Source: Actinomycetota bacterium (lineage in GTDB: Bacteria > Actinomycetota > Nitriliruptoria > Nitriliruptorales > JAHWKO01). From it: a stretch of 17,185 nucleotides of DNA. The stretch lies in contig JAHWKO010000049.1 of the NCBI GenBank assembly GCA_019347855.1, positions 1 to 17,185 on the forward strand. The letters are read 5' to 3'. Positions 4,075-6,540 of this stretch are shown here, piece after piece. The position numbers were made by a program, and so were the translations under genes. How positions within the stretch are numbered: position 1 is the first letter of the stretch; every line of letters begins with the position of its first letter. The notes beneath the pieces are model-generated. The model did no database searches and had not been told where the DNA came from. It saw only the letters and a program-made list of their open reading frames with translations.

Positions 4075-6540
4075 GTGACGCGTTACGTCTGCATCCACGG
4101 GCACTTCTACCAACCACCACGGGAGAACCCGTGGTTGGAGTCGGTCGAGCTCCAGGAGTCGGCCTACCCGTACCACGACTGGAACGCGCGCATCACTGCG
4201 GAGTGCTACGCGCAGAACGCCGAATCCCGCATCCTGGACGAGCAGGGCCGCATCGTCCAGATCAGCAACAACTACGCGGGCATCAGCTTCAACGTGGGGC
4301 CCACGCTGCTCGGCTGGATGCAGGACAACGCCCCGGACGTCCACGACGCGATCGTGGACGCGGACCGTCGGAGTCAGGCGCGCTTCGGCGGCCACGGGTC
4401 CGCGCTCGCGCAGCCGTACAACCACCTGATCATGCCGCTGGCGTCGACGCGTGACCGTCGCACCCAGGTGCGTTGGGGGATCGCCGACTTCCGGCACCGC
4501 TTCGGACGGGAGCCCGAGGGGATGTGGCTGCCCGAGGCCGCGGTGGACACCGAGACGCTCGAGGTCCTCGCGGATCACGGCATCGCGTTCACGATCCTGG
4601 AGCCCCACCAGGCGGGGGCCATCCGCCGGCTCGATGACGACGCGGACTGGCACGAGGCGGCTGCGTCGGACGTCGATACCGGACGGCCGTACCTCGCGCG
4701 GCTGCCCTCGGGGAACGAGATCGCGATCTTCTTCTACGACGGGCCGATCTCCAGAGCCGTCGCGTTCGAGGGGTTGCTGGCGGACGGGGCGCGGCTCGCG
4801 GACCGCCTGCTGAGCGCGGCGGCGTCGGCGGAGCGCGACCCCTACCTGGTGAACATCGCCACCGATGGCGAGAGCTACGGCCACCACCACCGGCACGGTG
4901 ATATGGCGCTGGCCTTCGCGCTGCGGCGGCTCGAGGCCAGCGAGGACGTGGAACTCACGAACTACGGGGTCTTCCTCGAGGAGCACCCTCCCAGCTGGGA
5001 GGTCCGCATCGCCGAGGACACCTCGTGGTCCTGCGCCCACGGGGTCGAGCGGTGGCGGTCGGACTGCGGTTGCGCGGACGGTGGGAACCCCGAGTGGGAC
5101 CAGGGCTGGCGCGAGCCGCTCCGTGCTGCCCTCGACCGGCTACGCGGCGAGCTCGACGACCTGTACGAGCGGGAAGCCGCAGCCCTCCTCGAGGACCCGT
5201 GGACTGCCCGGGACGGGTACATCGAGGTGCTGCTGGACCGCGGTCGGACCGACGCGTTCCTGGCCAGGCACGCCGCACGGGACCTGGATGACGACGAGCA
5301 GGTCCGCGCGCGACGGCTCCTCGAGCTGCAGCGTCACGCGATGCTCATGTTCACGAGCTGCGGGTGGTTCTTCGACGACCTCAGCCGCATCGAGACGATC
5401 CAGGTCCTGCGCTACGCGGGGCGTGCGCTGCAGCTCGCCCGGGCGCTGACCGGACGCGACGACGCGGAACGCGTGTTCCTCGACCTGCTGGCCAAGGCCC
5501 AGAGCAACGACCCGGACTACGGCGACGGGCGCGACGTCTTCGATCGTCACGTGCGCCCCTCCGAGGTCACCCTCGAGGGCGTCGGTGCCCACTACGCGGT
5601 GAGCTCGCTGTTCGAGGACTACGGCGACCCCACCGCGGTCCACTGCTACCAGGTCTCCCGTGACGCGCGACGCGTGTTCGAGGCGGGGGACGCTCGGTTG
5701 GCGATCGGGCGGGTGCACGTGCGTTCCACCATCACGGGGATCGCCAGCGACCTCGAGTACGCCGTGCTGCACCTCGGCGATCACAACATCGACGGTGGCA
5801 TCCGGGCCGCGGGTACCGGACGACGCTTCGAGAGCATCGCGACCGACCTCGAGGCCGCGTTCGTGGTGGCCGACTTCCCCGAGACGATCCGCCGCCTCGA
5901 GCACCACTTCGATGGCAACCGGTACTCGCTGCGGGACCTCTTCCGCGACGGGCAGCGCAGGATCCTGCGCACGATCCTGGACCGCTCGATCGAGGATGCG
6001 CGTGGCTCCTACCGCGCGATCCACCGGTCCCGCGCCCCGCTGATGCGCTACCTGGTGGACCTCGGCGTCCGGCTGCCACGGACGTTCCACCGGGCCGCCG
6101 AGATCGTCGTCAACGACGATCTCCGCCGGGCGTTCCAACGTCCCGACATGGATCCCGACCGCGTCCGTGCCTTGCTCGCGGACGCCGCCGCGTGGGACGT
6201 GGAGCTCGACACCGCCGGCCTCGCGCACGTGCTGAACGCGACGATCGAGACGCTCACCCGACGCGCGGCACGGCAGCTGCCCGACCCGACCCTGTTCGAG
6301 CGGTACGGGGCCGAGGGACAGAGCTTCCTCGAGCAGGCCGAAGCGCTGATCCGGCTGGCCGATGACCTGCCGTTCGAGGTCGACCTGTGGAGGGCGCAGA
6401 ACACCTTCTACCGTGCGGTGCACCTGACGTACCCGGAGCTGCAGGCGCTCGCCGACGACGGCGACGAGCAGGCCGCCTCGTGGGTCGAGCACTTCCGCCG
6501 GCTCGGGGACGTCCTCGGTGTCGCGGTGGAGGCAGGATGA
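4075..6540 (+). CDS. GH57-family protein with DUF3536 region
   Basis: A glycoside hydrolase family 57-like protein of 821 residues with the DUF3536 layout. The GH57 motif HGHFYQPPRE is at 8-17. WLPEAAVD at 151-158 carries Glu154, the likely nucleophile position. ATDGESYGHHH at 262-272 carries Asp264, matching the GH57 acid/base motif. A Cys/His cluster (Cys320, His322, Cys331, Cys333) follows, then a long mainly helical C-terminal region including TSCGWFFDDLSRIET (427-441). GH57 enzymes act on alpha-glucans, but to my knowledge no activity is established for the DUF3536 subgroup. It lies 22 bases after treZ and shares ATGA with treY, so a role in glucan or trehalose metabolism is a fair inference. 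The GTG at 4075 gives the family-like N-terminus MTRYVCIHGHF. An in-frame ATG at 4042 would add 11 residues and overlap treZ. There is no signal peptide. Confidence 0.93.
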   Translation: MTRYVCIHGHFYQPPRENPWLESVELQESAYPYHDWNARITAECYAQNAESRILDEQGRIVQISNNYAGISFNVGPTLLGWMQDNAPDVHDAIVDADRRSQARFGGHGSALAQPYNHLIMPLASTRDRRTQVRWGIADFRHRFGREPEGMWLPEAAVDTETLEVLADHGIAFTILEPHQAGAIRRLDDDADWHEAAASDVDTGRPYLARLPSGNEIAIFFYDGPISRAVAFEGLLADGARLADRLLSAAASAERDPYLVNIATDGESYGHHHRHGDMALAFALRRLEASEDVELTNYGVFLEEHPPSWEVRIAEDTSWSCAHGVERWRSDCGCADGGNPEWDQGWREPLRAALDRLRGELDDLYEREAAALLEDPWTARDGYIEVLLDRGRTDAFLARHAARDLDDDEQVRARRLLELQRHAMLMFTSCGWFFDDLSRIETIQVLRYAGRALQLARALTGRDDAERVFLDLLAKAQSNDPDYGDGRDVFDRHVRPSEVTLEGVGAHYAVSSLFEDYGDPTAVHCYQVSRDARRVFEAGDARLAIGRVHVRSTITGIASDLEYAVLHLGDHNIDGGIRAAGTGRRFESIATDLEAAFVVADFPETIRRLEHHFDGNRYSLRDLFRDGQRRILRTILDRSIEDARGSYRAIHRSRAPLMRYLVDLGVRLPRTFHRAAEIVVNDDLRRAFQRPDMDPDRVRALLADAAAWDVELDTAGLAHVLNATIETLTRRAARQLPDPTLFERYGAEGQSFLEQAEALIRLADDLPFEVDLWRAQNTFYRAVHLTYPELQALADDGDEQAASWVEHFRRLGDVLGVAVEAG

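Follow-up and report, generated by a model that had tools for sequence, protein, structure and literature searches.

A GH57/DUF3536 protein encoded between treZ and treY, a predicted alpha-1,4-glucan trimming enzyme linked to trehalose synthesis

A GH57/DUF3536 gene in a glgB-treZ-treY run

We analyzed a 17,185-nucleotide stretch of DNA from an Actinomycetota bacterium (contig JAHWKO010000049.1; hereafter the window), in which a gene for a protein with a glycoside hydrolase family 57 (GH57) domain and a DUF3536 segment lies between treZ and treY. The genes glgB, treZ, GH57+DUF3536 and treY are arranged head to tail on the + strand, with 34 bp between glgB and treZ, 22 bp between treZ and the GH57 gene, and an ATGA overlap between the GH57 gene and treY. 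Sequence and profile searches confirmed this tight run, which an earlier note on the window had described together with the lack of treX or glgX; the GlgX of an actinobacterial relative, used as query, gave no match in the window at E<=1e-60. We favor the reading, with a probability of roughly 0.65, that the GH57 enzyme is an alpha-1,4 trimming amylase/4-alpha-glucanotransferase that would provide TreY-TreZ with short linear chains and often remove the need for GlgX. The features of the run are given below, with CSR standing for conserved sequence region.

89..2206, + strand: glgB; above the cut-offs of NF003811, NF008967 and TIGR01515 (NCBIfam GlgB, 988 bits); Pfam domains CBM_48, Alpha-amylase and Alpha-amylase_C
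2241..4052, + strand: treZ, malto-oligosyltrehalose trehalohydrolase, ATG start; TIGR02402, 708.8 bits (cut-off 538.8)
4075..6540, + strand: gene for the GH57+DUF3536 protein of 821 amino acids, GTG start; predicted alpha-1,4-glucan trimming amylase/4-alpha-glucanotransferase
4534..4536, + strand: codon of Glu154, predicted nucleophile in CSR-3 (WLPEAA), 45/45 homologs; GH57 CSR-3 alignment (PMC6037648)
4864..4866, + strand: codon of Asp264, predicted proton donor in CSR-4 (ATDGESYGHH), 45/45 homologs
5095..5943, + strand: DUF3536 segment, residues 341-623; PF12055, 353.6 bits
6537..6540, + strand: ATGA in which the GH57 stop and the treY start overlap, read from the sequence
6537..9101, + strand: treY, malto-oligosyltrehalose synthase; TIGR02401, 860.6 bits (cut-off 498.65)

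The GTG at 4075 was preferred to an in-frame ATG at 4042 as the start of the GH57 gene because aligned homologs start there. The protein matched the GH57 domain PF03065 at residues 108-307 (78 bits, cut-off 21.2) and no NCBIfam family at E<=0.001, including the TreX/GlgX model TIGR02100 (GH13). A GH57 fold was predicted with high confidence, as an incomplete TIM barrel followed by a helical bundle; by DSSP of the model, the DUF3536 segment consists of a helical region that carries CSR-5 (MFTSCGWFF, with Phe432-Phe433) and then a beta-rich part. The codons of Glu154 and Asp264, which the earlier note had picked out as the likely catalytic pair, were confirmed, and both residues are unchanged in all 45 aligned homologs. 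With this invariant pair and the predicted GH57 fold, the protein is probably an active alpha-glucan enzyme, as the note had also supposed. At E<=0.001, the protein collection holds at least 8000 homologs, with PF12055 present in all 120 that were listed; among the matches listed, the closest showed 78% identity, and the closest proteins from metagenome-assembled genomes (MAGs) of Actinomycetota/Nitriliruptorales showed 62-64%.

The GH57 classification of Martinovicova and Janecek (2018) recognizes a group of "non-specified amylases" with FF at positions 35-36, Ser at 23 and Trp at 12 (PMC6037648). Phe432-Phe433 of the window protein correspond to positions 35-36, where FF was found in 45/45 homologs, and Ser267 occupies position 23 in CSR-4, where the homologs have Ser (22/45) or Thr (23/45). 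Trp at 12 is common to the group and the window protein, and the lengths compare as 785 amino acids on average with 821. Judged by these positions, the window sequence fits the "non-specified amylase" fingerprint, a group with one member listed as characterized, from an uncultured bacterium (Wang et al. 2011; PMC6037648). The other GH57 specificities differ at the same sites. Amylopullulanases carry WW at 35-36, a mark that is not unambiguous according to the source, whereas the window protein has FF; branching enzymes have HxHLP in CSR-1, ELF(Y)GHW in CSR-4 and Leu at 23, compared with HGHFY, ESYGHH and Ser; and classical 4-alpha-glucanotransferases have Lys at 23 in place of Ser267, although that activity is nonetheless reported by the authors who assayed the relative described next.

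This relative is PoGH57 of Pontibacter sp. SGAir0037, the subject of the sole paper naming DUF3536 that was found in the literature searched (PMC11206854). Its cluster, according to the text of that paper, comprises treS, glgE, treZ, GH57, treY and GH77, with glgB in the opposite orientation; thus, the placement of such a gene between treZ and treY is not new, and the Pontibacter enzyme was assayed in 2024. The likeness is drawn from the text and from motifs, since the CSR-1 of PoGH57 (HGHFY) is identical in the window protein and its CSR-4 (ETYGHH) is one residue apart from ESYGHH, the T variant occurring in 23/45 homologs; unlike the window, the Pontibacter cluster also has treS, glgE, GH77 and SusC/D. 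PoGH57 had an activity of 27.7 mU/mg on amylose and 4.2 mU/mg on MD18, and its branching activity was close to nil. When it acted after the branching enzyme PoGBE13, there were more linear products with a degree of polymerization (DP) of 3-4 and branches above DP6 were shortened, and PoGH57 was found to cleave and transfer alpha-1,4 chains and to trim long branches to DP3-4, with a constant branch number reported by the authors (PMC11206854). The earlier note had suggested that the window protein trims or debranches glucan. Trimming matches this assayed relative. Debranching is not supported, given the constant branch number reported for PoGH57 and the FF, not WW, that ends CSR-5.

Recurrence of the linkage and distribution of GlgX

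We examined the best 80 of at least 583 confirmed loci of relatives, several of which stop at a contig end. In 22 of these 80, treZ and/or treY adjoin the GH57 gene, in the order treZ-GH57-treY in 16 and GH57-treY-treZ in 2; the other 58 stretches contained no treY or treZ. The neighbors included TreZ (21), TreY (19) and GlgB (18, of which 15 are immediately upstream of the GH57 gene), and MalQ/GH77 was also frequent, being the neighbor in 7-8 of the 45 genes scanned upstream and in 8 of the 69 downstream. The actinobacterial GlgX query gave no match at E<=1e-60 in any of the 80 loci. The 22 linked loci come from Firmicutes/Bacillota, Verrucomicrobia, Chloroflexi (Dehalococcoidia), Nitrospirae, Omnitrophota, Zixiibacteriota, Actinobacteria, FCPU426 and Proteobacteria/Desulfobacteraceae/Desulfuromonadales/Desulfovibrio. 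The linkage of the DUF3536 gene to treZ/treY is therefore not due to chance and recurs across phyla; the earlier note would have taken a treX or glgX elsewhere in the genome, together with no such recurrence, as refuting its proposal, and the recurrence seen here means that this combination does not apply.

The distribution of GlgX was surveyed in 446 genomes, made up of phylum samples around G014, G017 and G026 (149, 148 and 149 genomes), termed here the actinobacterial, Desulfobacterota and Acidobacteriota samples and always given in this order. TreY exceeded its cut-off in 49, 28 and 18 genomes, and DUF3536 was present in 18, 64 and 34. DUF3536 was enriched in TreY genomes of all three samples, at 11/49 versus 7/100, 25/28 versus 39/120 and 12/18 versus 22/131 in genomes with and without TreY (Fisher p 0.014, 4e-8 and 2e-5, kinship ignored). 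Among treY genomes, GlgX exceeded its cut-off in 1/20 with DUF3536 directly upstream of treY (at <1.5 kb), 20/28 with DUF3536 elsewhere and 43/47 with no DUF3536; in G161, one of the four genomes of the last class that lack GlgX over the cut-off, GlgX is split over contig ends. The value of 1/20 depends on the <1.5 kb definition, and hand tallies with looser adjacency gave 4/23 (same strand, upstream, <=10 kb) and 6/26 (any strand, <=10 kb); all three definitions still differ from 43/47. By sample, GlgX in genomes with adjacent versus no DUF3536 was 0/4 versus 36/38 (p 1.3e-4), 1/15 versus 1/3 (p 0.31) and 0/1 versus 6/6 (p 0.14), kinship again ignored, so that the actinobacterial sample alone is significant by itself. 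In a further set of 42 genomes, which overlaps the phylum samples at G014, G017 and G026, GlgX exceeded its cut-off in 2/22 linked and 6/20 unlinked DUF3536 genomes, a difference that is weak alone; two genomes belong both to these 22 and to the 20 with adjacent DUF3536. Since genome completeness is not given, the GlgX absences are uncertain and may include assembly gaps.

Kinship bears on this pattern. In a TreY tree of 96 rows, 18 of the 20 adjacent genomes fell in one group of 30 rows, and by parsimony adjacency changed 8 times and GlgX 10 times. A phylogenetically paired test with 6 independent pairs gave, on average, 2.2 in the expected direction versus 0.1 in the opposite one (median p 0.5, not significant); with so few informative pairs, independence of the association between GlgX and adjacency is not shown. 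The GlgX anticorrelation is largely a feature that related genomes have in common. The absence of GlgX across phyla with a treZ-DUF3536-treY cassette was not found in the literature searched, and we regard it as suggestive, not proven.

In the same tree, the TreY proteins of two 1.6-Mb genomes of the actinobacterial sample (G061 and G189; loci L163 and L168), both with DUF3536 directly upstream, nest among sequences of the Desulfobacterota sample. This suggests transfer of the cassette across phyla, or else MAG mix-ups or contamination.

Two other families were considered as the missing debrancher. Type I pullulanase was over the cut-off in 0/77 genomes, with a control over the cut-off in 3/14, and was rejected. 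GH133, at >=100 bits, was found in 4/20 adjacent genomes, 10/20 other linked genomes, 0/8 GlgX-lacking genomes with DUF3536 elsewhere, and 4/29 genomes with no DUF3536, which explains some genomes but not most. Altogether, the 40 linked genomes have GH133 in 14 (18 at the Pfam cut-off), type I pullulanase in 0 and GlgX in 3, and 23 of them (19 at Pfam's GH133 cut-off) have none of the three.

We also compared 12 loci that were picked for having the GH57 gene; the actinobacterial sample supplied 11 of them and the Desulfobacterota sample one (L127, genome G261). The exact order of the window, glgB-treZ-GH57-treY, was found in L117 (genome G625), whose GH57 protein is 63% identical to that of the window and the closest among 396 genomes of the actinobacterial sample. 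Two loci (L118 and L121) have GH57-treZ-treY without glgX, two (L123 and L125) have glgB-GH57-treY, and L128 has glgB-treZ-GH57, where its contig stops. Five of the 12 (L119, L120, L122, L124 and L126) have glgB-GH57-treZ-glgX-treY, with DUF3536 and glgX in one run, and in L127, glgX is on the opposite strand, some 1.6 kb away from treY. Among the genomes of the loci without glgX (G085, G530, G706, G586, G625 and G659), the search for GlgX elsewhere covered G085, where none was over the cut-off. Because glgX may be present or absent beside the GH57 gene, trimming with or without GlgX fits these loci better than simple substitution.

Genes around the run

A likely start of glgB is the ATG at 158, and the N-terminus of GlgB is a Lys/Ala-rich tail (window 158-260: KKKAAKKAAKKAAKKTGKKTGKKT), which we take to recall histone-like tails. 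The tail is absent from L117, L123 and L125, with short Lys stretches only in L119 and L126. Directly after treY, at 9128-10705, lies a gene for a GMC oxidoreductase that is near choline dehydrogenase models, under their cut-offs, and might be part of compatible-solute metabolism. A leuA gene (2-isopropylmalate synthase, above the cut-off) at 13552-15192 is followed by an open frame at 15445-17184 that leaves the window and presumably resembles LeuC. The opening residues of a - strand frame at 16519-17184 resemble, by our assumption, the C-terminus of gyrase/topoisomerase A; no Pfam match was obtained for 16522-17163 within it.

The role of the enzyme beside TreY and TreZ

In the known TreX-TreY-TreZ scheme (summarized in PMC11046441), the proposed step of TreX/GlgX is the one proposed here for the window enzyme, provision of linear glucan for TreY-TreZ. 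The two enzymes differ in family and expected bond, TreX/GlgX being a GH13 enzyme (TIGR02100) expected to act on alpha-1,6 bonds and the window enzyme a GH57 protein expected to act on alpha-1,4 bonds; in other actinobacteria, the TreX/GlgX gene adjoins treY. From the gene order, homology, conserved catalytic residues, predicted fold, recurrent linkage and GlgX distribution observed here, we infer that the window protein would trim as PoGH57 does, feed TreY and relieve the need for GlgX. GlgB would make the branched substrate, glycogen, and the GH57 enzyme, akin to PoGH57 and the "non-specified amylases", would cut alpha-1,4 bonds in its outer chains by a retaining GH57 mechanism, with Glu154 as the nucleophile, Asp264 as the acid/base, and water or another glucan as the acceptor. 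Short linear maltodextrins would be released and shortened branches left; TreY would act on the reducing end of these maltodextrins to give maltooligosyltrehalose, from which TreZ would then free trehalose. Alpha-1,6 debranching by TreX/GlgX would be optional because outer-chain alpha-1,4 cleavage would give linear chains directly, and this step appears to be missing from many genomes with the cassette.

Several observations weigh against this proposal. DUF3536 was found in 68/351 genomes without TreY over the cut-off, and GlgX exceeded its cut-off in 3/52 of the DUF3536-positive, TreY-negative genomes tested. Therefore, feeding TreY is not the only role of DUF3536, and the absence of GlgX tracks DUF3536 beyond the trehalose link; DUF3536 may belong to GlgX-independent glycogen turnover in general. 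Thr at position 23, as in 23/45 homologs, is the residue that the classification assigns to GH57 alpha-amylases. PoGH57 is one enzyme of low activity, with amylose and MD18 as substrates (alone or after PoGBE13), for which the authors' split between hydrolysis and transfer is best taken as tentative, and its one-pot reaction with PoGBE13 made fewer branches, with a lower total branched peak area; the authors read this drop as hydrolysis/transfer, and by itself it does not exclude some loss of branches (PMC11206854).

In a rival reading, the enzyme is a true substitute for TreX, an amylopullulanase-like GH57 that also cleaves alpha-1,6 bonds and debranches glycogen for TreY. We consider this unlikely, since CSR-5 ends in FF and not in the WW of amylopullulanases, DUF3536 and glgX occur together in one run at five actinobacterial loci, and the GlgX absences are themselves uncertain. 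Those same five runs weaken a strict reading of the gene as standing in place of treX, and no statement that a GH57 enzyme replaces TreX was found in the available text of the literature searched, including PMC11206854, PMC11046441, PMC6037648, PMC6616209, PMC6133358 and PMC8158581. The earlier note's observation was thus confirmed and its interpretation partly supported: the linkage recurs and GlgX is over the cut-off in just 2/22 and 1/20 linked genomes, but substitution for TreX is weakened by the DUF3536+glgX runs (5/12), the DUF3536 genomes without TreY, the frequent glgB and malQ neighbors, and kinship.

Less probable again, in our estimate, is an anabolic enzyme of glycogen architecture, which would shorten and densify branches together with GlgB, the link to treY and treZ reflecting co-regulation of glycogen genes only. 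The GlgB neighbors (18/80 loci, immediately upstream in 15), the 58/80 loci with no treY or treZ in the stretch covered, the 39/64 DUF3536-positive genomes of the Desulfobacterota sample with no TreY over the cut-off, and the shorter branches and denser glucan discussed by the PoGH57 authors (PMC11206854) agree with such a role. It is opposed by the position of the gene directly between treZ and treY, with an ATGA overlap, over many phyla, and by the enrichment of DUF3536 in TreY genomes of all three samples.

If the enzyme does trim outer chains for TreY, many seemingly incomplete TreXYZ pathways would be complete, with another first enzyme. More tentatively, treZ-DUF3536-treY could be a second, widely distributed way of making trehalose from glycogen, disseminated partly through inter-phylum transfer, in which a GH57 trimmer displaces TreX and no dedicated alpha-1,6 hydrolase takes part. 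Such a role would fall to a family with at least 8000 homologs, yet with one paper that names it in the literature searched.
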